This document shows, piece by piece, positions 12,737 through 62,726 of a stretch of DNA of 64,000 nucleotides. The translations under genes were made by a program, and so were the position numbers. The DNA lies in assembly GCA_002224055.1 (NCBI GenBank), contig AZLU01000007.1, positions 186,001-250,000 on the forward strand, written 5' to 3'. Below the pieces are notes generated by a model. That model made no database searches, was not told where the DNA came from, and saw nothing but the letters and a program-made list of their open reading frames with translations. Origin of the DNA: Pezizomycotina sp. ARF18. Taxonomy: Eukaryota; Ascomycota. The first letter of the stretch is position 1. The number at the start of each line of letters is the position of its first letter.

Positions 12737-13388
12737 ATGGCGAAGATTATGGATCTCTGCCCCGAACTCTTGATCCAGATCTTCCACAGCTCCAAATACC
12801 TCGATCTCATCAACGTCCAAAGCACGTGTCGCCTGTTCCATCTTAATGTTGATGCTCATCGCAAACTCATACCCGCCGCTAACCACTTTCGCCGTGAACA
12901 AACTACCCAATTAGAAGCCCAAACGATGGTTTTCTATTCTTCGACCGTACTATGCCGCCTTATTGCTTCCGAATTCATCCCTATATTATTTCCTTCCTCC
13001 TTAACAGCTACCGCACCGTGAACCGCCGACTATAATCGAGCAAGCAGGCTACTTCGGCCGTAAATCTAACCGTTTCACGCCACTATCCTCATCATCCGTC
13101 CGTAACGAGTACGCGCTCGAGCTCCCTCCTATCAACACAACTGAAAAGATGTTTCTATTATCTGATGTCGGAAACAATATACGCCATTTATCAGTGTCAA
13201 GTTTTATACAAGCACTGATCAGGTCGCGATGGGTATATTTATGGCTGAGCTACGAAGACGACGGAGGGGAGAAGAATATAAATTATCTGCGGAATATGAG
13301 TTTTTATAAGTGTGAAAGAGAAGGGTGGAGATATTTGTGGGTAGAGGTAGATCATGGTGGAGGTTTTGGGGGACCGCTAAGATGGTGA
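12737..13388 (+). CDS. FB1, F-box family member, three frames
   Basis: Block A reads MAKIMDLCPELLIQIF, then YLDLINVQSTCRLF, a weak but clear F-box in which C replaces the usual L before PELL. Block B (YCFRIHPYI) lies at 12961-12987 in another frame. Block D (MFLLSDVGNNIRHLSVSSF) at 13149-13205 is in a third, followed by a block E-like stretch (CEREGWRYLW). At least two single-base breaks therefore lie between 12900 and 13010. It is the first of three same-strand copies before 16.6 kb. Confidence 0.62.
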
Positions 13389-14551
13389 GAAGAGTTAGAA
13401 GGTTGGAAAGATTTTAGGAATGAAGAATATATATAATTGTAACTGTATGCAGGGACATAAAAGTGAAAGGATAGTGGAGATGTATATGAAAAGAAAAAAA
13501 TGTGTATTTAATCTTCTAAGCTGGGAGACCGACTTTTTGGAATTCTTATAACATGGGCTATCCTCATCTGATGATATTGCCCACTTATGGGTCCTCTTAT
13601 TTTAGCGTTTGATCCGCGGGAATTTATTGTATTATCTGGTTTATAGTCCATACTGCTAATATAATATTGAGACTTGTACCTAAAAGGTTATGATTTCATA
13701 GGTTTTTCAGAAGTCATTATATATTACCGCTACTCTCTCTGGATATTCCGTGATATAAAATAGAAAACGATATCATAGATCTCCAGCGGCGGTCGAATAT
13801 CTCTATAGGGCTACTTGTGTTTTTTGTAATCGGAGTATCGTGGCCCGGGTGAATCTGCGGCTGTTTATACTTCTTCGATCGCCTTCGAGGAAAAAAGTTG
13901 CAAGACAATTATGAGAACTACTTGCTTAACCTAGATCGATAAATAAAAATCACTCCAGGCCGTCTTTTAGCTTCATGATGAGCCTGTAGATGTGTGCTCA
14001 CGAAGTGAAATAACCGCTAGCAGTTGGCTCCAAGAGGAGCAATATGAACTTGTTGTTCGGAGTATACTAGTGTCCCGAAAGACTAAATATATATATATTC
14101 CTTTTGTGTTTGACTTCTCGAGATCTCTTTTTGTTTCCAAAGGAAATAGTTCTATTAAAGTCGTATTTTTATAAAAAATATCCGCGAACGAAAATCTAAT
14201 GACGTTATGAGGTTCTTTTAGAATAAAAGAAAAGAAAAAAAGCAAGATAAAAGAAAGTCTAGTACTAACTCAACGCTACGGCAAGATGCTATAGTCTTTA
14301 GTACCGTTGGTTTCTGTTGATACTATTGCTGGCATGCAGACCGCGAATCTCCCACTGGCGCGCAACAGATATAGCTAGCGTGAGCCCAAAACAGAAATAA
14401 AGGTAGCACAGTTCAGCTGAAAATTTAAAGTATATTTGAAGCCCGAGTTTCTTCTAAAATTTACACTTTACAAGAAAGTCACCTGCGTTGGAAACATTAC
14501 GAAACGGAAAATTAACACAAACTTCCGTCAGTAATTTATTTACTAGCTATA
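13389..14551. other. AT-rich spacer between FB1 and FB2
   Basis: Contains only short ORFs (13717-13908, 13973-14245) without recognisable content. Nothing else is seen. Confidence 0.5.
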
Positions 14552-15149
14552 TTTCTTCCAAATAAACTCCTCGCGGAAGCCTTTAGTCACGTAGACTACG
14601 CGACTCTTATTATAGACGTCCGCCCCGCCTGCCGCCGCTTCAAAACCCTGATTAATCCCGCCACCTGCGGTCTCCTCGCCGAGCAGCTCTTCCACCCGGT
14701 ATTTCATCCTCCCACAAACGCGGAACACGACTTCACCTTACACCTCTACATCCACAAGCTAAAAATCAAGCGCGAAACTCTAGAAAAGAACTAAAACGAG
14801 CGCCTGACCGCCGACGACTTCGGACTTATCAACCCGAAAAATGGGGGAATTTACACCGTACACGTCGACCAAAGTAAAAAACGAACAGGCGCTGGGTCTA
14901 CCCGCGCCGGTAGAGCCGAATTCGATATCCCCCGACGGGCTTCCCTTCGTGCGTACGGAAGGGTGCGAAACGTACGGTATAACCGTAAGGCAGTTACTGT
15001 CCATCTTCATCCCCAAGCTGGGGCACGGATATACTATGCCGGATGAGTTGAATAAAAGGCGTAACGACGTCGGGAATTTCTTTCGCTTAGCGGATATGTT
15101 GGATCTGATGGAACGCTCGCTGAGTTTTTATTGGAGAGTGGAGTCTTGA
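14552..15149 (+). CDS. FB2, F-box family member lacking a start codon
   Basis: Block A is open from about 14531 without an ATG: FLPNKLLAEAFSHVDYATL, then VRPACRRF. Block B (DFTLHLYIHKL, 14728-14760) has L where the family has P, and a TAA ends that frame near 14793. Block D (PFVRTEGCETYGITVRQLL) lies at about 14940-14998 in the frame that runs to 15149. The missing start, altered block B and frame change suggest decay beyond sequence error. The antisense ORFs here (14543-14728, 14780-15016) are shadows. Confidence 0.6.
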
Positions 15150-15586: not shown

Positions 15587-15621
<35 letters not shown>

Positions 15622-15807: not shown

Positions 15808-16532
15808 ATGTCTCCATCTCCTTCCTTTCAAGACCTAGAGGTGTCAGGCTCTCAAGCTCCTCATCGCAAAAGGGATCTACACGAGTTCCCACGGAGATCC
15901 TCGTCGAGATCTTCAGCGGCCCCGACTACATCACCCTCAAGATCAAGCTCCGTCCTGTCTGTCGCCGCTTCAAGGACATCATCGACGCCGCCACCTCCGG
16001 GGTCCTCGCCAACAAACTTTTTCGTCCCGTACTCAATTCAACTCAACTCGACGAAGATGTGGAGACTCACTACATCTTCACCCTGCATCCCTGTATATTA
16101 AAGCTCAGGATGCACCGCAACGACATTGCAAAGGAAGAACTATGGCTCTCGGTAGAGGATCTAGTCTTAGTCGAGCCGGAAACTGAAGCATTCACACGAA
16201 TAACGGCAATAAAAATGAAAGATGAAATAGCGGTATGCCTTAGCGCACCTCTCGACTTCCTTCAAACGGATCTCGAGTCGGCACCCCAGCAACCATTCTT
16301 AATAATGAACGGCCGCGACAAACGCGGTTCCACCGTTGAAAAAATTCCTCAACGTCCTGTTGCAGAGAAAGGTCAGGTCGTTGTGGTCCAAAAATCTCGG
16401 CTACCAACCATATTCAAGATTGCCGACCCGAGGACTGAAGATTACATCTGCTTGGCTACCCTAATGTCGCGTAGCGACCTCAAGAGCTTTAGTAGGTGGG
16501 GCCGTCGATACCATTCATGTGATGATGGGTGA
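15808..16532 (+). CDS. FB3, F-box family member, nearly continuous
   Basis: One frame stays open from about 15805 to the stop at 16532 and holds everything from block A (VPTEILVEIFSGPDYITLK, then LRPVCRRFKDII) through block B (YIFTLHPCILKL, near 16068-16103) to block D (QPFLIMNGRDKRGSTVEKI, near 16305-16360). The likely ATG (15808) is one frame off and joins just before VPTE, so a single break near 15870-15885 is all that separates it from a complete gene of about 240 residues. It is among the best-preserved copies. Confidence 0.75.
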
Positions 16533-16918: not shown

Positions 16919-18302
16919 TTAAGGACTCGTACACCTCCCCGCCGCACAGAACTCAACGAAAATCCCACACGACAAAACGCTATTAGACGCGTAGTGAATA
17001 ACCGCATTAGCGTCATCGCGGACGTAATAGCACTGACACAGGCCCGTATTAGGGTTATAATTGTAAAAGTCCGGATACACGTTCCCGCAGACGGTAGTCC
17101 CACACGCGCTAAACGACGCAGCCTGGCCGGACGCCACGAGGTAAGTCCCGTTGTATCGATCGCAGATTCCGGAAGAGTAACGGTAACCGTTACCGTGTTT
17201 TCGGCTTTAGTCTCTAGGTAAGTGGATGTATACGTCTCCGTTGGAGTAGAGCACGGTAAGTAGGCTATATTCGTTACGGTCACGGTAGAGCCAGTAACGG
17301 TAGTAGTAACAGTACGCGGGTGGACGAGTTTAGAATAGGCTTCCGAAATCACGTCGCAGATTAACACTTCGAGACCCTTGAGGAGACCGGGAAGGTGGCA
17401 GGCTGAGGTACTAGCACTACTGCTGACCGTCGACGTTGACGGTGTGCAGGTAGCCTTGGTATATATACTAGAAGTGCGTCTATCAGCCGACGGCGTAGTC
17501 GTTAGTGTACTAGAGGTGCGTCTATTAGGCGCGGGGTCGGGTTATTAATGTACTCGTAGTACGTCTGCGCGCATCATTATTCGCAGATGTATTCGGCGAC
17601 ACGGAAGAGCTCGTTGTCGGGGTCTGTTCCTATTATTATCGGCGACAGGTGTTTCAGGGACGACATTCTTAATTATCCGAGAATCACCGCGACCGGGTTG
17701 TGCTTACTGAGCATTTCCGCAGGCGGAGTGGCCCTAGATTGACTGAAGCCCTAATTCTGATTAACGGGGTACTATTAGGGTCACCGTCGTCGCCTCTAAC
17801 GCGGTCTCTCTTCCGCCTAGGTAGCGGGCTCGTGAAGAAAGTTGACGTAGATACGCTAGTAATAGTTATAAAGTAGGTCGTAAAGTGGTAGTTATAGTCA
17901 AATAGGTCGAAGTTACGACCGCGGACTTCGTAATGATCACCTCCGGCGCTATAGAGGTAGTCGTGTCTATAACCGTGTCTATATCTACCTCGGTCGCTAG
18001 GATTGTCTCGGGCGGAATTACCGTGGTAATCGTTATAGTACTTATAGGGAGAGTTGTTGTAACAGTAGTAGTAGAGGCGTCAAGTTTAACGGTTGTTAAT
18101 CTCGTCGGCCCAAGAACAGTCACGATAACTATTACCGAGTTAGCCGGGAGCGTTAAGTAGTCTATAAAGGTCGGTCTATCGACTTTCTGCGTTATTACAG
18201 TAGTGTAGAGATATAGAGGATACGTTGAATCGCATAGCGATGTTGTAGTGACCGTTACGGTTATACCTCCGCCGTTTTTAGTAACGGTTATGGTAACATC
18301 TT
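16919..18302 (-). CDS. Thr/Val-rich surface-type protein with C-terminal 8-Cys module
   Basis: Read on the minus strand, 18302-17866 is open and made of Thr/Val/Ile blocks (DVTITVTKNGGGITVTVTTT; TTTVTTTLPISTITITTV). From 17545 to 17190 another open stretch continues in the same style (TVTTTVTGSTVTVTNIAYLP). The last 80 codons lie in a shifted frame and hold eight Cys (GICDRYNGTY, ACGTTVCG, LCQCYYVRDD, SCGIFVEFC, then RC) before a stop at 16919. TVTVT-type spacers are usual in O-glycosylated fungal wall or secreted proteins. No signal peptide is seen because the 5' end is closed by a stop just above 18302. Base use is odd: TA-rich and CA-poor with CG kept, as after repeat-induced point mutation. 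Confidence 0.5.
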
Positions 18303-20907: not shown

Positions 20908-20938
<31 letters not shown>

Positions 20939-25138: not shown

Positions 25139-25910
25139 ATGGGTATTCTGGATCTCCCCACGGAAGTCCTCACACAAATATTTGGTCATCTCGATTATAT
25201 AACCTGGAAACTAAGATCCGCTTGGTCTCCCATCACTTCAAATCATTATTGATTCCGCTACAGCCGGGCCTCTGCAGAAAAACCGTTTCTTTCCGACGGC
25301 AAATACCGCCAAGTTTCCGGCTATTGGGAGCGGGGATTATGCTTTCGCATTTCACCCTATATTCTATAAACTCATGGTCCACCCCGAGTCATTGGAGTTT
25401 AATATGGATTTGCCAATGTATGTTACACACCTCCATGGTGGCGACATTGGATTATACATCACCACCCGAAAGCAATTTCAAGAATCGGACCTATTGCCCT
25501 CGCGAATTCTCGATAAAAAGGCGTTTTCGTGCTGCATTTCTCAGAAGCAGCTTCACCTTTAAGGCATGGAGGACGGCGTCCTTACTTAATCTGCGACGAT
25601 CTAGACTCCGGATTTTACGGTCAGAGAGGTCATCGATATAATGGCCAGAGACATCGCTCGACTTACCTGGCGCTACGGGCCCGCTGGCCTCCAAAACGGT
25701 GATAAGCCCTATATTCTTAGAGCCATGAAACATCTCTATGCTATAGCCAACGCCGATGGTTTCGTACCGTTGATCGCTGTCGCGAAGATGTTCTGTCATG
25801 GTACCACCAATGTTGACATTTCGCCCGCAAAGCGAACGATTAAAACGCTGGATAAGAGCAGTGATCCTTTAAAGTCTTCGCTGAAGAAGGGATATCCGCA
25901 AGAGCTATAA
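25139..25910 (+). CDS. FB4, F-box family member, several frames
   Basis: Block A MGILDLPTEVLTQIFGHLDY is followed by TWKLRSAW; the VSHHFKSL part lies one frame over, and AA at both joins fits AAA. Block B (YAFAFHPIFYKLMV) is at 25338-25380. Block D is split over two frames, RPYLICDDLDSG and then FTVREVIDIMARDIARL (about 25570-25655). The last frame runs to 25910 with a charged tail (SDPLKSSLKKGYPQEL). All landmarks are present in order. Confidence 0.68.
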
Positions 25911-26815: not shown

Positions 26816-27474
26816 ATGTCATACCGCCGCCTTTGCTGCCTCCCAAATGAACTTCTCCTAGAAGTTTTCTCTCACCTGGATTACGTAGCTTTGAAGCTCC
26901 CGTGAGCTTAACTTGCCGTCACTTCGGGACTTGGTCCGACACCACCAGAACCATGCCCTTGCAGTCAACTTCTTCCGCGATAATACGGCGGACACCCCCA
27001 GTGGGAAAGGTACACGGTACTGCTTCAGGATGCACCCATGTATCCCGAAGCTTCACCTCCGAGTCCTCGACGATGAAGTCGGTCTTTACATCAAAGGGGA
27101 ATTTACGGCCTCGACTCAACGCCGCTGGCAAAGGAGAAGGCTTTCCAGCCTGGAATTGAAGAGCCGGATTTTTTCAAGGGTTTGGAATACTTCCCGGAAA
27201 CAATTACATTCATGTCATGCTACGGAAACGATAGGAGAATATGACCGTCTCTCATCTGGTGTGGCGGATGGTTGAAGAGATATTTAATGACAAAGCGGAG
27301 CATCTGTTTGATTCTAACTCGAATGTTCTTCATGTTGTCCGTGAAGGGGAGCGGACTCATGTTTATCAGGATATGCTCTGCAAAGGGAGGTGGCTACAGA
27401 TGTTTAAAAATGATACTTGCGTCTCAGGGCTTTTACGTACACAAGGATCGTCACATATTTTAAGTAATATCTGA
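26816..27474 (+). CDS. FB5, F-box family member, several frames
   Basis: Block A MSYRRLCCLPNELLLEVFSH, then LDYVALKL, after which the frame changes to VSLTCRHF and RDLVRHHQNHALAVNFF. Block B is YCFRMHPCIPKLHL (27018-27059). Block C lies in another frame (KAFQPGIEEPDFFKGLEYF). Block D is ITFMSCYGN plus MTVSHLVWRMVEEIF (27205-27285). Block E (VYQDMLCKGRWLQMF) precedes a stop at 27474. Every block is present. Confidence 0.7.
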
Positions 27475-27872: not shown

Positions 27873-28729
27873 CTAAAATGATTTAAATATAAAATTTTCG
27901 TTTCCAATCCATTGGTAATCAGGCTCCAAACCAATGAAAAAATTGATTCCTGCAGCTTGGTCGCTCGCCTGATCCTCCGCCTGATCCTCCGCCTTGTTCA
28001 CCTTCTCGTCATCTGACCCGTCGTCCGGCTCGTCCTTTGCCTGATCCTTCAACTCAACCGGAGGTATGTCTTCCACCTTTAGGATCAACCTCGACAGCCT
28101 AGTGTGCTTTTTACCACGTCCGTCCTCACACTCGTTTTTCTCAAACAGGTCTTTCCAGATCCCTGAGCAGAGTTTGTCCTGGTACGTGTTCGTGTGCTGC
28201 CCGAAGCCGGGTCCGTCTGCGAGAGCAAGTCGATAAGACCAACCGAACTTTCGAAATTCTCAAGAGCCACCTCTAAACCTTCTATCATCTTCACCGCAAC
28301 TTTTCCAACCGTCATTCCTTCATTGCTGCTACCGAACGCGATGAGGAAGGGAGGTCGTCTTCCGGAACACCTTTGAAGAAGACCTCTTCGCTCTCCGCAG
28401 CCGAAAAAGCCTTCTCGTTGGCTACAGTTGTCTGTTCGAGGGGCTGCGTTCCGAATATAACGCTGACGAAATCGGGTGTTCGAAGGAAACTTGAGTTTGA
28501 GGATGGCAGGGTGCGTGAGGAAACAGTAGCGGACGCCATTTTCGCCGGATCCGAGCGGTTCGACTTTAGTTTTGCGAAAAAGGGTTGGAGCGAAGACAGA
28601 ATCGGTGTAGGCCTCAAGAATGTCTTTGAAGAGATGACAGACGAGAGGTAATTTGCCTTTCATGGTAGCGAAATCGCAGTAAGAGAAGATCTCAACAAAG
28701 ATCTCCACAGGATTTTGATGGGGTCCCAT
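27873..28729 (-). CDS. FB6, F-box family member with acidic C-terminal tail
   Basis: Block A is altered (NPVEIFVEIFSYCDFATMK, then LPLVCHLFKDIL). Block B YCFLTHPAILKLKF starts near 28528 and block D PPFLIAFGSSNEGMTVGKV near 28354, all in one frame of 214 codons. Between B and D, however, the family-like sequence (NEKAFSAAESEEVFFKGV) is in the neighbouring frame, so two opposite shifts bracket it. After block D a further frame carries block E (YQDKLCSGIWKDLFEKNE) and an Asp/Glu/Gln-rich tail (DEPDDGSDDEKVNKAEDQ) to the stop at 27873. Confidence 0.7.
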
Positions 28730-29450: not shown

Positions 29451-30296
29451 TCACCCTCCAACGGGATTTTCGTGTCTACGGGGCTCCTTGTATCGGTCAC
29501 AAGGGCTGTAACTGTTTCTTTCAAATCTGTCGTCGCTTTCGACATTGCAGTCCCCACGGGTGCCCCACGTCCGTCGCATCCTTACTCTGCTCCAATGGTA
29601 CTGCCTTCGGCCACCGACAGGGGCTTCTCCGCCTCTAAACATTCCGCCTTTACTCCACATCTTCGACACGCCGTGGACGCTCCGCTCGAACCTCGGCTTT
29701 TTGTGTCGCAACAGTACTTTTAAAGTTGAGCGCAGGATATCATGATCGATAAATTGAGCTCGAACAAAATCCCAAGAGCATGAGGGACGCCTGGATGCGA
29801 CCAGGTGGATATGCTAGCGAGAAATCTCCGAAACTCGATGACCCTGCAACGATCGTGCGCGTCTATTCGTGAACCATCCTGCCAGTACGCCCGGATGATT
29901 GCCAATAATTGCTGGACTCAATCTGAGAAGGGATGTAGTGGATCGCGCCGCCGTATTTTCCAGACGCGCTGAGGCTGCGAACTAGGGCCGTTCTCTTCCC
30001 TATGAGTGCGCTAAGCAGCGGTCGATTAAATACTTCGCATCGGGCGCTATGAGCGAAAGCAACGTTCCGAGTTAGATCCACGCTGCCGTACAGGTACTTC
30101 GCCAGGCCCGCGTTAAACTTCGAGTTCACGCGACAAAGAGGAGCCAGAAGCCTCTTCGGATAAGTTTCCGCGAGCTAAAATTGTAATCCGGGTAGTGATA
30201 AGCTTCAAAAATCCCTTAATTAAAAAAAAAAAAAAAAAATTCCCGGGGATAAGTTACTTACGATATCGAAGATCTCGCCAAGAATCTCCGGTGGTA
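29451..30296 (-). CDS. F-box/LRR-like protein, partial, different from the FB family
   Basis: Minus-strand exon 1 includes SLPPEILGEIFDI, a clear F-box start, and ends at 30262 with a GTAAGT donor. The 87-bp intron (30261-30175) contains a T18 run and ends TTTTAG. Exon 2 continues in phase with LAETYPKRLLAPLCRVNSKF and AGLAKYLYGSVDL, a layout typical of fungal F-box proteins with leucine-rich repeats. Later parts (LLAIIRAYWQDGSRID and others) are in other frames as far as about 29451. The 5' end and start codon are not resolved. It lacks blocks B to E. Confidence 0.5.
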
Positions 30297-31393
30297 GGCT
30301 CCTAAAGCCTGCTGCTACGGTTCTTTACCTTCAACATTAGCTATCAAGGATGTGCAAAGCTATGAAAGCTCAGAATTTGGTTCTTTTTCGTTGCCCTTCC
30401 TAATAGGTATAGGTCCTAGGCAGCAAGTTGGAGCATGAAGCTCAGCTTGAAGAATTTAAAAAAAAGGAGAGAGTACTTTGACACGCTACTGGCATCCTAA
30501 CCGACCACACGCCATCTTCACCTATCGATCAAAGCCTGCGACACGAGAATGCTTGCTTGCATTATAATAATCAACGTAACAAAAGAGAGGCTTAAGCTAT
30601 GTAAACGTAGTGGCTATGTTTATACTTGCTAGGGTTAGTTGAGATTCTTTTCTAGGTGAAGTCCATGTCAGCAATGTTTCGATAGGATCAGTTATAGGTA
30701 TTCCAAGACACAGGGTCGATATCTTACCACCACGATCTAAATTGCTGCTCCTCGCTAGTTATCTACCCCGAGCTTCAAACCCCAAAGTGGCGCTTGGGAG
30801 TAACTAAAGGGAAGGAAAACACAGCTCGTAAACCTTTGACCAATAATTGCTCTGGCCAGTAGTGGCGTGAGACTCAACCTAATGATAGGAAGCAAATACG
30901 CGGATCCACATTCATTAACGTTACTCTGCAGTTTTCGCGCTTGTTTTAAATATCTGTTTAGGTTTAGTTTAGTGAAGCACACCGAACAGAATATCCTAGT
31001 TTTGAATAGCCTAATACCGCCCGTAGTAGCCGAAACGATGACAGCGAACCGTTAGAAAGCGCCCCTAGACGCCGAAGTTGCCCCCTGCGCCATAGAGTCC
31101 AGTCGAAAAAGTAAAGAGCTTACTAAGAAAGTGTTCAGTGAGTGTCTCACAATAATAATTAGATTCAAAATTTTTTCAAAGGTTTCGTAATAGCTTAAGC
31201 GAACTTAGATATTAGTGTGACGCTCTCCAAGCAGATAACCTTTTGTTAGAAAATTGGTAAGGGTTTCCGCAAGCCTTATTAAGTATCATTTTCTTATATT
31301 TATTTTGTGTGCTCCTAATAACGCTAAAAAGCTAAACCCTTGAAACATTATATTCTTGATTCTCCGTCTACGATCCCCCCATCAGTCGTGAAT
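30297..31393. other. Spacer, nothing recognised
   Basis: Short opposing ORFs at 30755-31055 show no domain. No repeat was noticed. Confidence 0.45.
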
Positions 31394-31930
31394 ATGCCAG
31401 ACATCAACTCCATTCCTCCAGAACTCCTCCTCGAAATCTTCAAAAAGCTCGATTACGACACCTTGTACCGCATAAAGGCCGTCCGCCGCAGCTTCAATGA
31501 CATTATCAACCTCGCTGCGCAGAGCACGCTCGGGGCCAATCTCTTCCAGTACACCGAAACCCGAACGCATACCACCGACGATAGGCTTTACTACTTCAAC
31601 CTTCACCCGTATATATCCAAGCTCGTCGTTTGTCCTACCGCCCACGAGAATTAATGGAGTCCAAAAATTCAAAATGTGGGTTTTTACAACGCCACGACGC
31701 GCGACTTTACGCCACTCGATAACACTCCGACACTCGACGAGCGCGCGTTGTCGCCGGCGATCTCCGAAGGCGGCTTTTTTTTAAAGCATGATATTCCGGA
31801 TTACGTCGTCTCTGCCAGAGGCGCCGCCACCGATAACACAACCGTGAAAGATGCTGTGGTGTGGTTGATGGACGCGGCTAAGCCAGGCAGCACAATGGTG
31901 CATCTGGGCTTTTGCGATAGGGGACGGTAG
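31394..31930 (+). pseudogene. FB7, F-box family member with one in-frame stop
   Basis: One frame carries the whole gene: block A MPDINSIPPELLLEIFKKLD, then YRIKAVRRSFNDII; block B YYFNLHPYISKLVV (31588-31629); block C (ERALSPAISEGGFFLKHD); block D PDYVVSARGAATDNTTVKD (31796-31850); stop at 31928-31930. It is cut only by TAA at 31652-31654, after HEN and before WSPKIQNVGFYN. A single C-to-T in CAA would give TAA, the change made by repeat-induced point mutation. An ATG at 31340 is possible, but 31394 fits the other members. Block E is short or lost. Confidence 0.75.
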
Positions 31931-44802: not shown

Positions 44803-45931
44803 CTACTTCTCCTTATGATCAACCTCAGCCTTTTCTTCCTTATCATGCTCCGTTCTACCGCCGTGTTCTCCTTTTACCTCTTTGTCTTCTTCGTCTTCAT
44901 CGTCGTCTTCCTCCTCATCCTCTTGATCCTGAACAATAAACTCCTCATATCGACAGCCTCAACCCTTCCTCATCCTCTTCCCCTTCCCCCTCATAGTCGC
45001 TATAGAAATAATCCGAATACCCATCGTCGTAGTAGTCATCGAAATCCTCGTAACGCTCTCGTCGTCTTCAGATATGCTGCAGATAATCTTCACTGTTCTT
45101 CTCTCCTCTTCACCATCCTTTCCTCTTTCGTCTCCTCCTCTTCCACTTTTTCTCCAGCAGTTTTATTTTTATCCCCAAAAAACATCACAGCACAAAGCCC
45201 AAAACTCCACCCCGCAACATCACCAACCCAATTCCACGCCCATCAAGAACACCCTTATAGTCCCCATATTATTCCCATCCAGATTCCCATCGAAGCACCC
45301 CATCTCCGTCTCCAAACTACCCAAACTACACTTCCTCAACACCGCCATCGCGAATTCCTCCACGGTTAAATTCCTGTGGTGCGACTAGCAGAAACTACGA
45401 ACGGAAGTTTCGGGAACCAGTAGTAAAAGAAGTAGATTGACGGGCTTACTAGCCGACAGAGCGTTCTCGATAGCGCAGGGGTAGAATTGTAATGGTGTGA
45501 AGTGTTGCGTTGTAGGTGGACGAAGCCGATTTTGTCGAGGGAGAGACGGAGTCCATGCTGACGGCGCGTAGGTTGATCTTGAGGAGGTGATGCAGGGGAG
45601 GTGAAGTATTACTCCGGCGGCGAAGGTTCTAGTCTTGTCCTGTTATATCCCCTTCGGTTTCGTTGGAGGGTGTGCTTTCGTCATCGTCGCCTTCGGGTCG
45701 GACTGTCGAACTGGCGAAAGCTCCTCTGTCTTTCTTGAGTGAGCTGGTTCGCTGCAGTAGTGGTAGCGTGGAGACGTCTTCCTTCTGCCGGAATAGGATC
45801 TCGAGGAGGGACCGCTGGCGAGTCGATGATGTCGTTGAAGCGGCGGCAAACCCGCCGGACGTTGACGTTGAGGGTGAAGTAGTCGAGTTCAGGAAGATCT
45901 CGGTGATGAGCTCCGTCGGAAGGTGCTTCAT
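44803..45931 (-). CDS. FB17, F-box family member with long acidic, Tyr-rich tail
   Basis: ATG at 45931 gives MKHLPTELITEIFL; the rest of block A (ELDYFTLNVNVRRVCRRF, NDIIDSPA) is shifted. Block B is reduced to FYPCAIENALSASKP. Block D (LPFVVSASRTTG against NLTVEEFAMAVLRKC) lies at about 45420-45340. The 3' part is a long acidic tail: ERYEDFDDYYDDGYSDYFYS, then EEFIVQDQEDEEEDDDEDEE, in two frames to a stop at 44803. The plus-strand ORF of 199 codons over the same bases (44770-45369) is its hydrophobic antisense shadow. Full length would be about 375 residues. Confidence 0.64.
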
Positions 45932-46995: not shown

Positions 46996-47629
46996 TCAAC
47001 TTGAAGGTCGCGGAAAAAATACCGGGAAATGACATAAAGACAGGTAGCTCATTATGTGTAGCAGACTACCGAAGGAAATCCTTCTGTGGTAATAGCAGTG
47101 AATCATAGTCTCGTGCAGGTCCATTTGGGTTTTAAAGCGCTCCAGAATCTCTCCACGAACTCTTCCTGTAACTCCTCCGGTCGTGGTAAGCTCGACCATA
47201 CGAACGGTGCTCCGGCGCCGGACGGATGTGGGAGAATTCCTGCGCGGTCACAGCGGGCAAGGTGGCGTTTTCGTCCGCTAGGGGAAGCTCTCCAACAACA
47301 ACGCGGCGGGATAATCTTCCGTTGCCCGTATGCTTCTTCCCGAAGCTGACGTCCCGAAGGCTGAGTTGCCCACGTATGCAGTAGCTGTCGAGGTCGACGA
47401 AAAGGTCGTTCAACAAGGATGTAACTCGAAGCAGTACTCTCCTTTGCGGCTTGTCGTCTTCCTGGTCCTTTCAGTCTGAACAGCTTCTTGGCAACCTTCC
47501 GTGCGTAGGGACTGGATAATGTCGTTGAAAAGTGGGCAGACAGCGCGTAAATTGATGTTGAGAGTGAAGTAGTCGAGCTCGGCGAGATATCGACGAGGAG
47601 TTCTGTGGGAAGAGACTGGGGGTCGCCAT
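46996..47629 (-). CDS. FB18, F-box family member
   Basis: ATG at 47629 (MATPSL), then LPTELLVDI in the next frame and LDYFTLNINLRAVCPLFNDI in a third. Block B GEYCFELHPC ends in TGA where a T run is one base short (AA at 47412-47413 on the plus strand). The following frame (LNDLFVDLDSYCIRGQLSLR) has block C (LADENATLPAVTAQEFSHI). Block D is GAPFV, then ELTTTGG and REILERFKTQM (about 47215-47110). It ends near 46996. Block D matches less closely than in other copies. Confidence 0.62.
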
Positions 47630-48220: not shown

Positions 48221-48996
48221 TCAAAGTTGCCAATTTAAATCCCCAGAGCCACTTATCCAGCTCCGGCGACTTAAACTCCTTCGCATACGGGCGCCCCGCG
48301 CCATTAACTGCTCCACCGTAATATCTTTTTTCGCGCCACCCTCTCTGTTCCAGTCACGAGAAGCTGCTGTTGTGGGAAATTGGCAAACGTGAAGAGCGTG
48401 CCAGGAGATGACTTCGGCGACGAAATCCAAACCGTGACCTTTCCAGGGTGAAAGCCTTTGCAGACGACGAACGGGTATTTGTGACGCGGCCCCGCGTGGT
48501 GGAACTCCCTTATCGGGACTCCGTAGCGCTTAGCGCATTTTCTTTTGCTACTGGGTGTCTTTGAGCATCGTCCAGGATCCCGTGTCGCGCCGTTTGAAGC
48601 CTACGCGATCGATCGATGAGTAATGGTCGCGGCTCAATTAGCGGCTTGTGCGTGTCCCTTGGAGGCTCGCCGAGGTTAGAAAATTTTGTAGATGCACGGA
48701 TGAACGTGTAGCAGTATTGCGGCCATCTTTGCGCGTTTAGCGGTGTGGTTACCGCGGAAGAGTTTGTCGAGAGGGGCCTGCGGCGTTCTCGATGATGTGG
48801 TTAAAGCGACGGCAGACGCGGCGACTTTGAGGTTGGCGTAAAATACTCTAGATGAGAAGACTTCTGTGATTAGCTCCGTAGGGAGGTCATTAAGATTCCA
48901 TGATAGTTCTGTCGTTGTTTCGAGCTTTAGCTCGGTAGAACTCTGTGGAGGTCCTTCGGCGGTTGCGATGGACAGTGTCAATTTGCTAGGAATCAA
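48221..48996 (-). CDS. FB19, F-box family member
   Basis: The frame from 48996 has NLNDLPTELITEVFSS and regains the family frame at block B (HVHPCIYKIF). In between, the F-box core (RRVCRRFNHIIENAAGPS) is in another frame, with C runs one base short on both sides. Block C is AKENALSATES (near 48530). Block D (KYPFVVCKGFHPGKVTVWIS, 48480-48421) is the clearest copy of that motif in the window. The final frame (FVAEVISWHALHVCQFPTTA) ends at 48221. The true start may be an ATG near 48903 rather than 48996. Confidence 0.7.
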
Positions 48997-49797: not shown

Positions 49798-52700
49798 CTA
49801 GGTCGCGCTTGACCTCCAATATAGGATGTTGATCCTCGCGATATACCTTTTTGTATGAAGCCAGCGTTTTACCTGGAGCTCCAGAGCTTCCTGATATTTA
49901 CCTCTGAGGTGGTAAGTATGGGCAAGCTCTTGCACGTTTGATAGCGTTGAAAAAGATATCTTCAGTTCCTCAATGGCGTGCAAAGCCCTTACCAGCACGT
50001 CTTCTGATTCTTCCAAGCGGTTTACATCTCTTAATGCAACGGCCAGGTTCGTCATGGCGACCGATGTGGCCCAATTTTCTCCGCATATACTCTTCTCCAT
50101 TTCTAGCAAGGCGGTGTTCCCCTGCATTAAATATATCTTCATCAGGCTTTGAATGAATTTTTGTTTGGTTTTCTTCGCCCAGCGTTTCTAGCGCCCGGTT
50201 TACTATGCTAGAGCGATGTCCAACGCCTCGTCTATGTGACCCTGTTGGAGAAGGACGGTCCGCGGCCTGTTAGACCTTTCAGCGATGCGATGTGATCTTC
50301 TCCGTGGCCCTTTTGTTGAAGTCCACGACACGATTACTCACTCCGAGCAATATCTCGTCGATCATGGACGTACTCGCTTCTGGCCCGCTGGGTTTGAAGC
50401 GCCTTGTGCAACCACTGTAGCCAAGCTCGCAAAGCCCCGCGGTAACGTAGTAGTAAAACCAGACGATGCATTTTCCGATCTTATGAACCGAAAAACATCT
50501 TCTCAAGGGAACGGCACTGCTCTCTACTCATGTCCATCGCTCCATGTCACCGCTCGCTCGCAGTGGACCCACCAATTACCACCGTGTATTTGAACCATAC
50601 CGGCGACGAGTTCAAGCGTTCCGATTCATCTCAGTACATAAGTGACTCTGCGGTAGCTATCATATAGCAGTAACGTCACCAACTCCCTCGCTGGAAAAAA
50701 TATTCCTCCGGTCTTCTTGAAAAGTGAAGTCCAGATGGCCAACTACAGTCTCCCATACAATACTCTTTGACAGTGGCGTGCACGGTACGAACAGTATTGT
50801 CCGGTAAAGATCTCAACCAGCGGGGAGAGACCGAAAATATGTACTCTCTAGGCTTACGAAGGAAGTTTTCCGCATCAATATCCCGCTCACCGTGCTAATT
50901 GTCAAGCTACGGTTAGCTTCTCAACGGTTAAATTGATTTGGCGGCAAGCATCCAGGTGAGGATCTTGTGCAAAAGTTGACGGTCGCGTGCGTCCATCGTA
51001 AGAAGCCGCTGGAAAATTGTTTTGTACATATCTTCGAGCCCACTGGGCGTGGATTGACTTTCTCGCGCATTTCCTTCGTCGTTCTCGACTTCTCAATCTC
51101 CTCCAAAATGAGGCGAGCCCTGCAGCCTCTTTAGCGGGTGCAAAACGCATGTAGAAGAGCCGGAAGTGAGATAAATTCCCGCGTAACTTATCATCATTAT
51201 AACGTGCCATAGGAACATCCCTCTCGCGCGTTTTAGTGAGCTCTGGACATAATCTTGTATACCTGCTTTAACGAGGTCCTGCGACTCATTAATACTCGTT
51301 CGCAGATACCTCATGATATCACTGGTAACATTTTCCGTTTCCACCGACATACTGGCACAGGACAAGCTGCGGTGGCATTCTCACCCGCGGGCATTACTTT
51401 GTCCCTGATTTCCTCCAGGGGTCTGCTGATAATGCAGATCCGAAGATTCTCCATTTTAGATACGAGATCTCCATAGCGGCTGTCAAGGTTTTGCTCTCGG
51501 CGCACTCGTCATTGCATCCACGAGGCAGAACACGGGGGTTGTACTTTCTCGAGGCATTTTCGAGCAGCTCCCATATCGCCTCGAGACGGGTCGGCCGGAG
51601 TGCCCATTCTTTCCATTTCGGTGTTCATTATATCAACCGCATCGGGCAGTATGTCGAGTATACCGAACAGGCATACACGTGCGAATGCTAAGGCGCTAGT
51701 ATGACGCTCATGCTCCCCTTACCGTTGTAGAAGAAAATGAGAGGGTCTTTTCCACATTTATCGAGCTCTTCCACTATTACCGATGCAATCATCGACTTCC
51801 GGAGCCGGGCTTGCCGTGGATCCAGAGCAGCCTCGGATCTTGAAGGTTGCCGTCAGTGGCAGCGCCAGGGCCAAGGGTGTTTACGTTGCCATCCATTATT
51901 TTACCGATGTAGTCTATGATCCAGCCGCAGGTCCCTTCGACTCTTTTTCGTCGGCTATGTTCTCTCTTACCGTAGTCACCTGGGCAGATCCACCGCCTGA
52001 CTTCCCGTTCTCGATCGCTGACTTGCTTAGCCGCAACACTTTTCGTAACAAACCCAAAATTAGTATGTTAAGCTGTACAAATTGCTTCGAATAAAAATAA
52101 TAGTAACAGGTAAATGATATAAATAACCAAGTGCGAGGCCACGTAAAGTATACCCTGCCTGAATTTCTTCTGCTCAGACCGCTCCTGCCCCGCGGCAACC
52201 CTCTCGACTTTGCCTCTTGCCGCTCAGTTTCGTTCTTTTCGAACTCGATTCTAGCGACTATTTATACGCGTCAACCGCATGTTAGCTTATCAATAGCCTA
52301 GTATTTGACAGAAATACTCGCATACGACAGGGTAATCCTACGGCGGCGAAACTGATCCTCGAGTTCCCGCCCGTGGTCGCTTTCTCCATCTCAGCCGCCA
52401 TAGACGACATACAACCGCTTCTTCCGCATGCAGTTCATGCTCTTGATAACGTCGTTGAATTCATCAGCGAAGGGCTTTCGGAGGCTACGCAGGATTCCCT
52501 TGAACTGTTCCTACTGAATATTTTACCGCCCGGGCACAAAAGTCGATCATGTCAAAATAAACCACCAATAACGGCTTGGACCTTAACTTCATTGCCATGG
52601 AGCTCTCGTAGGCGAGTTACCGCTGGCGCGTTGGTTACTAGGAACTGGAGGACGTCCGCTAGCATTCCTAGCGCGTCTGCTTCCTGTTTGAGCAGCGCGA

Positions 52701-53817: not shown

Positions 53818-54950
53818 ATGCTGAAGAATGGCAAACCTCCGCGAATTCCCACGGAGCTCATCACCGAAATGTTTCTTCATCTCGACTATTTCACCCCAAT
53901 AAAGCTCCGCCGAGTCTGCCGTCTTTTTAGCGAAATTACCGATGGTGCATTGCCGCAGCCAGGGCCTTTAGCGTCTTTTTTCTAGGCGTTGAGGTTCAAA
54001 ATATTTTAATTTTATTTTTTTTGTTTTGCATAGTAAAGCGCTCGTTTTTGCAAATTTTTGTGCTGTTTTTCGAGGTGTCGGGCGCCCTCTCACCTCGGTA
54101 AGTACTGGAATACTGGATAAAAGCACCCACGCTAAATACCCTGGCCGCAGCTCGGCGAAAACCTCTGCCGCCGCACAAGCGTCGCCCAAACTCCAATCGA
54201 GCAGGCATAAACCATATGTTCTCCTTGCACCCGTGTTTTAACTTTGTCAGCCCAAATCACCAAATCGATATCGATGGCGCAAGCCCGGAATGGACTCGCG
54301 GTTTTAACAACGACAAAATGAAGTTATTCACGCCACTTAACCAGTTCCCACGCCTAGCCTAAGAGCTCGCCATAGCACTAGGCGGTGGCTATCCAGCTGA
54401 CGGATTCCTCGCTGTAAAAAATTTACCATCACTAGACGTCCCGTTTATAATACTCGCAAGGGAAACTGACACAAATATCTCCTTGGGGATTTCTTCGACT
54501 GGCTAGCGGAGATTCGTCGGAAAGGATCTCGTCCGATAGTATTACCTGGTGGAAGGGCACATCGATATCGCGTAACAACGAGGACGATATCATCCCGATG
54601 GAAACCGCATTGCAGCTTTTGAAATTATATTCCAGTGAGATATATAGAACGAAATTCATAGGTTACCGGTTCAAGGGTTCCAGATCAGCTCTCCGGGGGA
54701 TATGATCGGCGAAAAACCGTTCGAGGATGTACATTTCTTCTACCTTGCGCGCAAAAGAGGACATAGATTCCCGCGGAGTTATTGAGAGCAGGGATGGCGT
54801 CTAGTCGTGTTGCATAGAGAGGCAGATAGAAATAAGCTTGTGAATAGGATGATTCGCGAATATCCATTTCACGGTCTTGGAGAGTATGATGGAAGAGAGC
54901 CTTGGGGTTCAATACGGTTCTCTCGGATTAAATTCCTTCGAATCTTTTGA
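53818..54950 (+). pseudogene. FB20, F-box family member with an in-frame stop and a long C-terminus
   Basis: Block A PRIPTELITEMFLHLDYF, then IKLRRVCRLFSEIT, is in one frame (from ATG 53818 or 53764). About 190 bases of T-rich sequence (53986-54180) separate it from block B (HMFSLHPCFNFV, near 54210). The frame then runs through a TAA at 54360-54362 (between PRLA and ELAIALGGGYPADGF) into block D (VPFIILARETDTNISLG, near 54428-54480) and, shifted, DFFDWLAEI. Further frames hold IIPMETALQLLKLYSSEIYR, KPFEDVHFFYLARKRGH and block E (YPFHGLGEYDGREPWGSIRF), ending at 54950. It is the longest member. Confidence 0.66.
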
Positions 54951-55631: not shown

Positions 55632-56547
55632 ATGGCGAAATTGGCGGATCTTCCGCTGGAACTTCTAATCGAAATATTCGAACACTTCGACTACGTCACT
55701 CTCAAGATCATCCTCCGTCGCGTATGTCGCGATTTCCACAGCATTATAACAAACAATTACCGCCCACTTTTGGGGAATGTGTTCTCCATAGAGCCCACGC
55801 CATACAAGCCCCAAACGAATATCGAGAGGATAAGAGAGAAACTTCACGAGCGCGAATTCCCCCCAATATTATGAACCGTGACCACGACAGGCTGTGGAGC
55901 AGCCGTTATGGAGGCATCTTCTACTGGCCGAAAAGCTACAACAAATTTTTCCACGAGCTGGGCTACTGCTTCCGCCTGCACCCTTGCTTGCGAAACCTCC
56001 GAGCAAACTACAAAGCCTTGGAAACCAGAAAACTCGACATCAAGAAGGACTTCGGGTTCGTCAACGCCAGCGCTGGAGCCGGAAGTTGGAAACCGCTTAT
56101 CGTGACCGACTTCGCGAAGGAAAGAGCGGCCTCAGATCCCATTCCTGCTGCAGAGTTCTTCAAGCGAGGTGCTGCGGAGGAACTACCGTTCATAGCATCT
56201 TTCTGGGACGAAGTACCAGACTTAACCGAGCTGACCGTCCTCCAGCTCGTCCAGTTCGTCGCAGATACCTTCAATGACAACCATAGAGTGAGCAAAACCG
56301 ACGCAAATCGAGAGTAAATCCGCTCAGTTACGAAAATGGCCGCCACCCTCTGTTCCTGAAGTGGTGGTTGACGTACTTTTGGGAATCGCTGATATACTTC
56401 AATGAGGAGTATGCCGCCTTGCAATTGAACAGAAAGATCTCTGAGCGGGCAGGATATGCATACTTGACGCTCGTGAGCCACGTGAGTCCTAGAGACGAAC
56501 TGTGGGAGACTAAGGCGAGAGTTATTGGAAGCGGAGTACCTCAATAA
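55632..56547 (+). CDS. FB21, best full-length example of the F-box family
   Basis: Block A MAKLADLPLELLIEIFEHFD, then YVTLKIILRRVCRDFHSII (residues 1-40). The linker reaches a C6 run (55859-55864), where one more C would join EREFPP to NIMNRDHDRLWSSRYGG. Block B GYCFRLHPCLRNLRA is at 55956-56003. Block C is ERAASDPIPAAEFFKRGAAE. Block D is LPFIASFWDE, then LTELTVLQLVQFVADTF, ending near 56270. After a second shift near 56300-56330 come LFLKWWLTYFWESLIYFNEE and AGYAYLTLVSHVSPRDELWE, with the stop at 56547. That gives about 305 residues with two breaks, and it serves as the reference for the family. If the F-box works, the protein would bind Skp1 and present a substrate to an SCF ubiquitin ligase; blocks B to E would be the substrate side. 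Confidence 0.8.
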
Positions 56548-57752: not shown

Positions 57753-58257
57753 ATGCTTCTTAAAACAATGCTAACTCTCACAGCGGCCGTTGTCGGGACT
57801 GTCCAAGCGGCGGCGGTATCGGGGCAAACGCTCCAGCCGGTACCTACTGAGGAAAGCGGCGATCAAGAGAATGGGATGGTATGTTTACTTGATTTTTCTC
57901 TTTTATTTTTGGCTATTTGAGCGGAAGCATGTTTCACAACTCACACGATATCGATACAACCAGCCCGCTCTCTACATCTCTGCTAACGTTTTATTCTTTT
58001 TACATCCACTCCAGGACACCTCTACTACCACCTCCCAATCCGGCCCACCAAAAGTCAATCAAAGCTCCTATCCCACGGCCGTGGCTACTACCCCATGTGC
58101 CTAACCCTCGAAAACTCCCCTACGATAGCGACCCAATGTACCTTTACGTCACCTGCATAAACTGCGAGTGCGACAGCGAAGGCCGACTGGACAACTGCTG
58201 GTGGCAGCCGACGATCCAGCCGAACATGCCGCGGGTAACAACTCCGGCATGTGCATA
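57753..58257 (+). CDS. Small secreted Cys-rich protein 1
   Basis: Exon 1 (57753-57878, 42 codons) encodes a signal peptide, MLLKTMLTLTAAVVGTVQAA. A GTATGT donor at 57879, GCTAAC branch site and CCAG acceptor at 58014 mark an intron of 136 bp. Exon 2 opens DTSTTTSQSGPPKVNQSSYP. The Cys core (VTCINCECDSEGRLDNCWW) follows in a shifted frame, with more Cys (GNCFCMF, DSCYRR) after it. The core C-x2-C-x-C-D-x3-G-x3-NC recurs in the opposing gene at 59.4-59.8 kb. The protein is probably exported; its role is unknown. The 3' end is uncertain, and a second intron is possible. Confidence 0.6.
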
Positions 58258-59382
58258 ACCTGGGAAACTGCTTCTGCATGTTCATGGACGATAAAGAACC
58301 TAATCGGTATGATTCTTGCTATAGGAGGATGGCGATGCCGGTTAGTTCGCATATTACTGGAACGACTATTGGGAAGAGTAGGAATGGTTTCATGTATGAT
58401 CGGAGTTGTATTTATGGGATTGAGTATGAGATTCTTGGAAGAATCCTATAGATCATTGAATTTTGATGGATTAAGCAGGGATGTAAGTCTTGGGCTTAGC
58501 CATAAAATAAAGATCTCTTTGATTATAATTATCTATCCTTTCCCAGTTTGTTGCTTTGTATTATTCAAAATCAGATTAATTTAATGTAAAGAGTAGGATA
58601 GTATTCGTTGTTATGTTATGTCTATATTCAAAGTTTTTGCTCCTTTAACTGCTTCGAATCGGTGAAAAACATGATTTTTTACTTAGTTTTACCTGTTTCT
58701 TAAGCACACCCACGAGATGTTTTTCAAACTAGAACAGCGCCTTGGGCTTAAGCGCGAACTTCGATTCACAGACCATAAGTGAGAATTTAATAACGATATG
58801 GGAGCAATTTGTTTACGCGTTTTCTTGAACGAGCGGGCACAGCGAGCTAGTAAAGGCATTATTACAAGCTTTGTCGCCACAAGCCACAAATTTCCCCGAA
58901 CCCTGTATGAAGAAGCGGTGACCATTCGATGTAGCAATAATGGCACTACCAGGCAAATATTGACTTCTTTATAACGTCGCGGTCGTGGAGGATGATACTA
59001 TATATGCTGAAGCTTAACACCTAAGTATTTTAAGCAGATTCGGACTCTTAGTTAGTTTGGATCAATTATATGCACTTCCTGCTTTTCAAGATTTCAATGA
59101 TTATCAAGAAGTCTACAAATCTATTCCTTCTACATCATCATTCCTTAGCATGAATTGCGATTCTATTTTCTAATACTACTACTTCCGGATACAAATTCAA
59201 CATTCTTTCCTTCTAGCACCACGACAAAAATAATAGCAGTACACGCCCCACTGATATATATCTCCTAAAAGATTCGAAAGGAAACAAAAATATACGCTGG
59301 TAATTAAACCGAGAAAAGACAATCCGTGAACACCTCCCTACAACCTCCGTGGAAGCCACACCCTAGAGAGGAGATTGTGCTC
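58258..59382. other. Spacer between the two secreted-protein genes
   Basis: ORFs at 58168-58584 overlap the end of the first gene and may include its last exon. Otherwise nothing is recognised. Confidence 0.45.
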
Positions 59383-59818
59383 CTATACAAATACAGAATC
59401 CAACACCAGGCTCCCACACCACTGCTGGACCAACCGCTTATCCTCGTCGGAATCCAGCACCGTGGCCCCGCTCGCGTCATTCAGCGTGCAGTTGGAAACG
59501 TGGCCGAATCCGTCACAGGTGCAGTCCCTGCACTGGGGCATACGGGGACCGATGCAATGGAGCTCGAAGCCCACCTCGAACATGTGGCGTATCGCTTCGG
59601 ATTCGTTTGAAGGTGGAGATACCTATTTCAAATAAGGAAATATAAGCAACTACTATTTCACGTAAAAACAAGTTTTAAGAGAGTGGAAAATTCAGTATTG
59701 TATTGGACAATAGTCGTAAAGTGGGAATACTAACCCATGTTCCTACCGGAGTTGCAGATACTGTACCGCCCACGATGGTCATTGTGATGAGAGCTTCAAA
59801 TACGGTTGAGAGATACAT
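59383..59818 (-). CDS. Small secreted Cys-rich protein 2, apparently intact
   Basis: Exon 1 (59818-59735, 28 codons) is a signal peptide, MYLSTVFEALITMTIVGGTV, then SATPVGTW. The intron (59734-59623, 112 bp) has a GTTAGT donor and an ATAG acceptor and is in phase 0. Exon 2 (79 codons) starts VSPPSNESEAIRHMFEVGFE and has six Cys: LHCIGP, MPQCRDCTCDGFGHVSNC and QQWCGS, with a stop at 59383. The product is 107 residues before cleavage. It shares the Cys core of the gene at 57.75 kb, and the two genes converge. It is the only clearly unbroken spliced gene in the window. A host-interaction or wall role is possible; there is no direct evidence. Confidence 0.7.
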
Positions 59819-61913
59819 ATTTTCGTTTATGGGGGGGTTTTCCAAGATGCGACAGAGTAATGCGTGAAGTTTCGTATGCGTAGTAACTGTTATAGATAAT
59901 TTTACGTTGGCCGTTGGAGTACAATGAACTAGAGGTTTTAAGGATACAGAGCGAGGATAATTGACGAATATATAACTCTCTACGATGGATCACAGAAAGC
60001 GTATTAAAGCTGCACTGGTTATATTACCCTTTATTGCAGCAAAGTCAAATATTACAGCGATTAGATATAATTAAGAAATCCGAAACTGACCACTTATGCC
60101 GTCCAGAAGCGTATCTAGGACGTTCTAACCAACATTGCTCTTTCTTAAAGTAATGACGGTTTGTTGACTTCGGGAAACGCGACCAGGCTGTATACTATCT
60201 AATTCGCCAATCTAGCAAACTTCAAACATTGGAAAGCCCAAACAACAATTACTAGAAGCAGGCTCTTAACCGCTGCGCCCGCGAACTCTAAACTGCCTCG
60301 ACTTCTCGCTTTTTACGCCCCGAAGCCTCGTATGATTGCTAATATTCATGATATCTTCCTCTTTGATCCAGAACCATGGTTCCTCTAAGTCTACAACGGC
60401 TTTTTTTCGTAGCCTCTAGTATATACAACACTCTAAGTAGCAAATAAAGACTAATAGCACGTGTCGTAAGGTATTAGCCATTTCCAGAGCTCATTCTGGG
60501 TTTATTTCTGGTAACTAATATACAGACGAAATTCTGGTAGCTCAGCCTATATTTTTTTATTCATCTTTGGCGGTATAAGAGAAACAGTTGGTGTTTGCTA
60601 TGGTAAGTTTACAGTTTCAGTTATTAAATTTCTGTTTTTTTAACTCTTGGTGAAAAGCAGCGGGCCTTCGCGAAATTGACAAAGTTTAAGGTTTGCTGTT
60701 TTGGCCCGAATGTGAATGTCTACAGCACTGCTCCTACAGCTTAACCGGAAACAGAAGGCTCCAAAGAACGACTAGTACCTACGATTTATACATGTGCGAA
60801 TAAGTCATAAAGTATACGTAAAAAGCAAAGGGGTACGGGAATTTATGCGCATTTACATCCTACTGGAGCAGATGAAAATCTAGATTAACATGCGTTTTGT
60901 GGTTGTCGATGAGGCGGAGTGTGGCGGTCGTTGTGTGATCGGAAAATTAAGACGTTTGGAAACAAGCGAGACGTTTGTAGTTCCTCACAGTGTTACCCAG
61001 TAGTAGAAAGGTATAGCAGTGTGTAGAATGCGCAGATGCGCAAATGTCAGTGGAGCGGGTCTGATTGTGCAAGTATGGGATATCGATCATGACTATCGAT
61101 CTGAAGCTTATATCACAATGAACGCACGTTGATAAGATGAAATCCACTGGCCTTTCAGCAGATAGCAGTCTGAGTTCTTATTCATGCGCTAGCGTAGCTC
61201 CGATTTCACGGCCATGGGAGCTCCTCATCACAATTGAAATCCATCCATCTAGCTGAAGGCCTGAGAATCCGATATCTAACTCTGGAGAGATCAAGAAGGT
61301 ATACTCAGGGGATCAATAGCAAGAATGAGCTTCACTCGGATACTGTGAGGAGAAAGGAAGGCCTCAATTCTGAGAGAAAGAGTTTAAGGCATATAACCAG
61401 CTAGAGTAACACCAGCTGGTATACACCGTAGAGTAGAGGCTAGAAAGTATGTAGCTGTATTAAAACTAGTTATTCTCGAATATGCAACCTTCTTTAGGAG
61501 CTTAACGAAGTTCAGTTACTCTGTTCCTTTATATGAAGATCGAGCTTATCGTAAGTACGCAACCTCAAATAAGCAACCTTAACTCACAGCTGAGAGCGCA
61601 GTATATTCGGATATGAATAGGAGAGAGCAAACAGTGAGTCAGTTCTCTTATCAAATTTATGGCTCCTAATTCTTTCTTTTTTCGCTGTCTTTTTTTTTTT
61701 TTTTGTACTTGGCTCTTTTATCTTTTTATATTTCTATTAAATTCAGCTAAATAAAGGATTGGCCAGCTTCAAGCCACGATAAACCAACACTGCAAAATAC
61801 GACTGGCACCATTGTCTCGCAAACAGTGGATCTCTCCTAGAGTATATACATCACTTTCCTTCAAGCACTTACCATCTCAATATCTCCTCGTAAAGACCGT
61901 CTCGACATATAGC
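59819..61913. other. 2.1-kb spacer, nothing recognised
   Basis: No ORF above 70 codons with recognisable content. A T17 run at about 61689-61705 precedes FB22. Confidence 0.45.
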
Positions 61914-62726
61914 CATGCTCCTCGTCAACCTCCAGTGGAGCTTCTCCTCGAAGTCTTCGCGAACTGCGACTACCTAACCCTAGACACAAAACTAAAAACC
62001 GTCTGCCGGCGCTTCTATAACGTCATCTCCGCGACCGAAACACGATCCTCGCGTCAAACTTCTGGCGACGGAACGTCCTAATCCCACTGCCACCGCCGAT
62101 TCCAATACCAATCATCAAACCGTCCTGGCCGCCACAACAACCTCCCGCGAATTTTGGTATGCTTTCGAGTTACATCCGTGCCTCCGGAACTTGAAAGCGA
62201 AATGGAGTAGGATGGAATCCGGCGCTTGGCATCCGAACGACATCCGTTTCGTCCACACGGACTCCTTTACGCCACTACGTTGTCTTCCAGACCTGATGCG
62301 CGAATACGCCTTCTCGCCGCCTGTAGCCCGCTGGCCCGTCGGCGAAGCAGAAGCTCTCCAGCTCGACCAGACACTATACGTCATCGCCCCATGCTCAGAG
62401 ATTGAATTGAGGTTATTTTCGGAAGTTACGGTCTGGAGTTCGTCGCGTCGTACGTCAATAACATCCTGTCGGAGAAGGGCAAGCTGCTGAAGGTTCCGGT
62501 GGATATAGATGGGTACGGAAAGCTGTTGGAGTTTCATAGGGAGGAGGATGTCGTTGACAAAAAGCCGGGCTTTTCGAAAAGTGGAGGTTGGTTTAAGGTC
62601 CATGTGATCTTTAATAGGGGGCACAAGGACGGGAGAGTTATTTTGAGGAATAGGGTAAAGAGGGCGGCTAATGGGCATGTGAGGGGTAAGCACAGGGTGA
62701 AGAAAACACGACTTGAAGGGTTTTAA
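61914..62726 (+). CDS. FB22, F-box family member, C-terminus long and open
   Basis: ATG at 61914 (MLLVNL) leads by a shift into PPVELLLEVFANCDYLTLDT and LKTVCRRFYNVI (block A). Block B (WYAFELHPCLRNLKAKW, 62155-62205) opens a frame that also holds TDSFTPLRCLPD, REYAFSPPVARWPVG (block C position) and TLYVIAPCSE (block D). One more shift gives YGLEFVASYVNNILSEKGK and block E (GGWFKVHVIFNRGHKDGRV) in a frame ending at 62726 with a basic tail (KRAANGHVRGKHRVKKTRLE). That is about 270 residues with roughly three breaks. The minus ORF 62115-62693 is its antisense shadow. Confidence 0.74.

Follow-up and report, generated by a model that had tools for sequence, protein, structure and literature searches.

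A large array of divergent F-box genes in a Pezizomycotina genome, probably an old tandem family of ubiquitin-ligase receptors

A 64,000-nucleotide stretch of the genome of Pezizomycotina sp. ARF18 (bases 186001-250000 of the 511-kb contig AZLU01000007.1, here C7), hereafter called the window, was found to carry 22 related F-box loci between positions 12755 and 62465. They belong to a larger array that is probably an old tandem family of real intronless genes, whose products would serve as receptors of SCF (Skp1-cullin-F-box) ubiquitin ligases. The number and place of the window loci had been correctly given in an earlier, sequence-only reading of this stretch. The same reading proposed rapid birth and death of the copies under diversifying pressure, which is not borne out by the comparisons presented here.

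Detection and extent of the family

Frame pieces were compared all-against-all, whereby the F-box loci grouped together, and an iterated profile placed an F-box in 25 of the pieces. A purpose-written aligner then matched a protein profile to DNA while tolerating frame changes, each frameshift being penalised by 6 bits and each stop by 8 bits when F-box loci were aligned. With this frameshift-aware profile the 22 window loci scored 53-184 bits each, while the maximum over 180 reversed tiles of the window was 21.0 bits. Eleven loci were on the forward and eleven on the reverse strand, and the expected cluster of thirteen within 31.4-49 kb was recovered, with a mean spacing of 1416 bases instead of about 1.3 kb.

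The profile had been built from the 22 window loci themselves, so that the flanks offered an independent test. A profile search of this genome, as suggested by the sequence-only reading, extended the family beyond the window: on C7, the flanking 100 kb in either direction yielded 33 additional copies with scores of 40 bits or higher, nine of which reached at least 100 bits, whereas 752 reversed tiles covering all 264 kb peaked at 24.3 bits. Fifty copies, partials included, were located within 132-270 kb of C7, interrupted by a single 36-kb gap. The strand was shared by 35 of 49 neighbouring copy pairs (24 expected).

Across the genome (46.4 Mb in 408 contigs), a 47-residue F-box query matched 87 places at E<=0.01, including 43 on C7 and two smaller groups on contigs C135 (seven) and C78 (six). 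The seven matches on C135 lay inside 52 kb (G000:C135:6793-59009). A scan with PF12937 found at least 115 places, with 150 of 285 candidates scored, and listed four of the 22 window loci; PF00646 listed two of them (150 of 207 candidates scored). Standard Pfam scans thus missed most copies, owing to the divergence among them and to their broken frames in the assembly, and partly because a limited number of candidates was scored. The sequence comparison beyond this covered eight F-box loci, seven of them off C7. Three of these seven (on C311, C69 and C11) shared the blocks that follow the F-box, at 61-68 bits, and the other four did not.

An F-box-like start at about 30.3 kb of the window was rejected as an array member, with only 20 bits. 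It represents a second F-box-like kind (29866-30324, reverse strand), with the start LPPEILGEIF, after which come a T-rich stretch and a frame containing LCRVNSKFNAGLAKYLYGSVDL.

Gene structure and predicted protein

As the sequence-only reading had stated, the loci had their downstream blocks in common and in the same order: F-box, (Y/F)CFxLHPC, GFxN, FxPL, NExALSP, PF(V/I) and TVxxF. That reading also saw no introns, which is supported by one full copy outside the window (L038:1920-2693), a single uninterrupted frame of 258 codons from ATG to stop. In 20 of the 45 near-complete copies the F-box was preceded, exactly six codons upstream, by the first ATG of the frame, as in MAKLxDLP. Some 90 residues C-terminal to the conserved blocks fell outside the coverage of the profile, and inspection by eye revealed no signal peptide.

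The F-box exceeded a Pfam cut-off (PF00646 or PF12937) in four of seven window pieces and in the full copy. In the full copy of 258 residues Pfam listed F-box families only (E up to 0.1), and nothing credible emerged for 20 pieces of the second domain (E up to 5). For the same copy and pieces Pfam listed neither the leucine-rich or WD40 repeats that follow the F-box in classes FBXL and FBXW, nor an FTH or FBA domain; Pfam holds an FTH model as well as FBA models. Supplied with 20 window pieces, AlphaFold2 gave a confident model of the 124-residue second domain (pLDDT 87.7, pTM 0.79). Foldseek matched this model to nothing with E<=0.001 in the PDB or among viral models, which is no proof of a new fold. 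Column identity was higher in the F-box than in the part behind it (0.42 versus 0.20); freer variation after the F-box would fit a recognition role, without proving one.

The F-box of such proteins joins Skp1 and the remainder joins the substrate. Each copy would encode an intracellular protein of about 260 residues, with a start of usually five residues, the F-box, an alpha/beta domain of about 120 residues and a less conserved tail. The F-box would dock on the Skp1 of the cell and the alpha/beta domain would pick the substrate, so that the copies might act as interchangeable receptors sharing one ligase core, each marking other proteins for degradation. Both Skp1 and cullin, as expected for SCF membership, were found in the same genome, the former at one locus (C306) and the latter as matches on four contigs (C13, C4, C234 and C15). 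If this holds true, about fifty divergent receptors within 138 kb form a large and compact set of ubiquitin-ligase adaptors for a fungus, and the substrate domain of these adaptors has no Pfam name.

Frame damage in the array and in conserved genes

The sequence-only reading had omitted that 19 of the 22 window loci display frame changes and five a stop. In total, the window loci contained 72 frameshifts and five stops in 3368 codons (21 frameshifts per 1000), and the 33 loci outside it 70 frameshifts and no stop in 4374 codons; all 55 copies together thus displayed five stops in 7742 codons and 18 frameshifts per 1000. Four HSP70 genes of the same assembly (on C49, C70, C3 and C208), counted under stricter costs, contained 30 frameshifts, 24 of which were in matched codons, and one stop in 1758 codons, or 17 frameshifts per 1000. 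The frameshift loads of the window loci, the outside loci and the HSP70 genes did not differ significantly (Fisher p 0.34 and 0.74). The breaks were also of the same kind: codons one base short accounted for 90 of the 122 events in matched codons of the F-box copies and for 17 of 28 in HSP70.

The HSP70 gene on C49, read as mitochondrial-type, was composed of seven consecutive profile pieces in changing frames. Consecutive pieces overlap at five of the six joins and are separated by 31 bases at the remaining one, and there is therefore no room for ordinary introns. Genes of the CCT chaperonin were likewise split into pieces in several frames (read from the table, uncounted), and some of those pieces extend across stops, which is what introns would produce. 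Frameshift counts were mildly uneven among the 45 near-complete F-box copies (dispersion 1.34, p 0.065), four of which had neither frameshift nor stop in the matched part. These unbroken copies lie at C7:133762, C7:157938 and C7:159344 and at window position 15885.

Since the HSP70 genes carry a similar frameshift load and neither set has many stops, assembly indels from unpolished reads are the most likely source of the breaks, rather than decay. The assembly displays about one frame-breaking indel per 55-60 codons, HSP70 included, and gene or pseudogene calls on it need care.

Age of the copies and selection

The evolutionary comparison covered 45 copies with at least 110 codons from the 264 kb of C7, in one genome. 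Their mean amino-acid identity was 27 % and the best pair reached 55 %. Synonymous sites were saturated (mean pS 0.74, mean pN 0.53), and pN exceeded pS in 1 of 989 pairs, a pairwise test, divergence precluding tests of single sites. The physical neighbour was the nearest relative in 13 of the 45 copies, against 2.0 expected by permutation. No recent duplicates were encountered within these 264 kb, and no search was made for close copies in the rest of the genome.

The local expansion of paralogues put forward by the sequence-only reading is thus upheld by the relatedness of neighbours. Its rapid birth and death finds no support in comparisons where the best pair stops at 55 % identity, synonymous sites are saturated and recent duplicates are lacking, nor does its diversifying pressure, with pN above pS in a single pair. 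As judged from these comparisons, the copies most likely derive from old tandem duplications and have been kept under purifying selection.

Weighing of alternative interpretations

Several observations weigh against an array of functional SCF receptors. No homologues outside this genome were found. Thirteen of the 45 copies had no in-frame ATG within 50 codons upstream before a stop, three of the seven window pieces stayed under the Pfam F-box cut-offs, and the structural model that included the F-box was poor (pLDDT 68.8). The unequal costs of frameshifts and stops in the F-box runs favour the calling of frameshifts; the HSP70 count of 30 was obtained at 8 bits each, and the F-box settings gave 37 HSP70 events. 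Aligning to a protein profile and selecting recognisable copies both bias pN downwards. Finally, part of the set may be dead: copies 17 and 19 exceed the average number of frameshifts, copies 13 and 14 are partial, and copy 19 is the likeliest decayed copy.

That most copies are true pseudogenes is nevertheless very improbable. The frameshifts and stops of the window loci, with copies 17 and 19 above average, are what such a graveyard would display, but HSP70 genes are loaded alike, stops are scarce among the 55 copies, pN hardly ever exceeds pS and four near-complete copies are unbroken over their matched part. It is highly improbable that the proteins bind Skp1 without a role in ubiquitylation, or that they no longer bind Skp1 and work through the other domain only; the three pieces under the Pfam cut-offs would agree with this, whereas the F-box is the better conserved part of the family. 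An unlikely alternative of another kind is a repertoire of non-self receptors, directed at parasites or other strains, in which birth and death continue to renew the copies and selection is diversifying. The form of the array, its conserved F-box and variable remainder, and two NLR-like genes among the copies (ankyrin at 2.4-4.7 kb, TPR at 49.8-50.2 kb) speak for it, as does the nematode F-box A family, in which, according to excerpts of PMC12062965, the substrate domain is under positive and the F-box under purifying selection. The absence of any pair above 55 % identity among the 45 copies, their synonymous saturation and the near absence of pairs with pN above pS, in the one strain compared, argue against such renewal. 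The NLR-like neighbours, though weak evidence, make a role in non-self recognition conceivable. It would be a distinctly long shot to regard the 'LHPC' domain as an undescribed substrate-binding fold and the array with its NLR-like genes as an S-locus-like non-self locus of an ascomycete, each receptor removing a different foreign or incompatible protein. An old tandem family of SCF receptors thus stays the preferred interpretation.

Window copies and neighbouring elements

The window series opens on the forward strand with copies 1 (12755-13223; 125 bits, two frameshifts), 2 (14555-15074; 174 bits, three frameshifts) and 3 (15885-16346; 184 bits), the last of which is free of frameshifts, its matched part forming one open frame with no in-frame ATG just upstream. 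Copies 4 (25154-25661; 148 bits) and 5 (26840-27363; 179 bits), also forward, have four frameshifts each. Copy 6 (28271-28711, reverse; 149 bits) has two. The next pair is again forward, copy 7 (31412-31921; 157 bits) having one stop and copy 8 (32847-33515; 157 bits) two frameshifts.

Copies 9 to 15 are all on the reverse strand. Copy 9 (34233-34762; 104 bits) displays five frameshifts, copy 10 (35652-36243; 131 bits) six and a stop, copy 11 (37180-37697; 127 bits) three and a stop, and copy 12 (38571-39010; 168 bits) one, with an F-box piece above both Pfam F-box cut-offs. Two partial copies follow: copy 13 (40073-40213; 53 bits), composed only of a weak F-box and the LHPC block, and copy 14 (41035-41195; 57 bits, one frameshift), reduced to the F-box. 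Copy 15 (41919-42506; 107 bits) has five frameshifts.

Forward copy 16 (43443-43969; 149 bits, three frameshifts) precedes three reverse ones. Copies 17 (45316-45922; 127 bits, seven frameshifts) and 19 (48407-48885; 132 bits, eight frameshifts and one stop) are above average with p 0.035 and p 0.009, respectively, uncorrected for 45 copies, and copy 18 (47068-47612; 151 bits) has six frameshifts and one stop. The forward copies 20 (53845-54535; 111 bits, six frameshifts), 21 (55650-56296; 162 bits, one frameshift) and 22 (61932-62465; 128 bits, three frameshifts) complete the series; the confident domain model was that of piece 55925-56296 of copy 21.

Within the 36-kb gap of the array, fifteen ankyrin units of 99 bases, 96 % alike, were observed on the forward strand (3154-4665). 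The open frame of this region (2388-4394) displayed a weak match to the GPIID winged helix, as in fungal NLR proteins. The near identity of the units suggests recent exchange between them, unlike the old F-box copies. On the reverse strand at 49801-52067, TPR repeats (49801-50187) and a P-loop-like stretch (51792-52067; weak NPHP3_N match, E 0.045) were found in different pieces, which perhaps constitute, judging from these motifs, an NLR-like gene inside the array. Two short frames at 57893-59622, on both strands, display an alike cysteine pattern, CxxCxCDxxGxxxNC, and are perhaps small secreted paralogues. TVTVT-repeat-rich frames beside a cysteine-containing piece (16922-18300, reverse) resemble a fungal cell-wall or mucin-like protein; two pieces scanned from this region gave no Pfam match.

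Comparison with known F-box systems

Excerpts of PMC3984280 describe F-box proteins as contacting Skp1 via the F-box and the substrate via the rest, and it is in the latter part that the array stands apart. Its members have in common with class FBXO (PF00646 or PF12937), whose C-terminus is uncharacterised, an N-terminal F-box above the Pfam cut-off, in the four of seven window pieces and the full copy mentioned above, and differ by a second domain with neither a credible Pfam match nor a Foldseek match in the PDB at E<=0.001.

The Pfam families that are expanded in the nematode-trapping Orbiliomycetes M. haptotylum and A. oligospora include F-box, ankyrin, NACHT and NB-ARC, and the genomes are about 40 Mb with 44-45 % GC, as reported in excerpts of PMC3828140. 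The array resembles these fungi in F-box expansion and GC (40-50 % in 4-kb bins of the window); unlike here, those excerpts describe no F-box gene array. Judged from one gene, ATP-citrate lyase, the host is probably a Pezizomycotina ascomycete that has no close relative in the protein database searched: a 360-residue piece of this enzyme on C7 had fungal best matches, in Pleopsidium and Bipolaris, at 85-86 % identity over 95 % of the length. With nematode FBXA, as outlined in the consulted excerpts of PMC12062965, the array shares a large family size, a conserved F-box and a freer substrate part; its copies differ in lacking a Pfam-detectable FTH domain and, in the pairwise comparison, a signal of positive selection. 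The SLF and SFBB genes of Petunia and pear likewise form a linked F-box set that jointly covers several targets (excerpts of PMC11871771). This is a plant system, with 16-20 genes in Petunia, which involves an S-RNase partner and self-incompatibility. Such an F-box array was not recognised in any report on a fungus in the literature searched. The array consists of F-box proteins with an unnamed second domain, next to expanded F-box families already known from fungi and nematodes.

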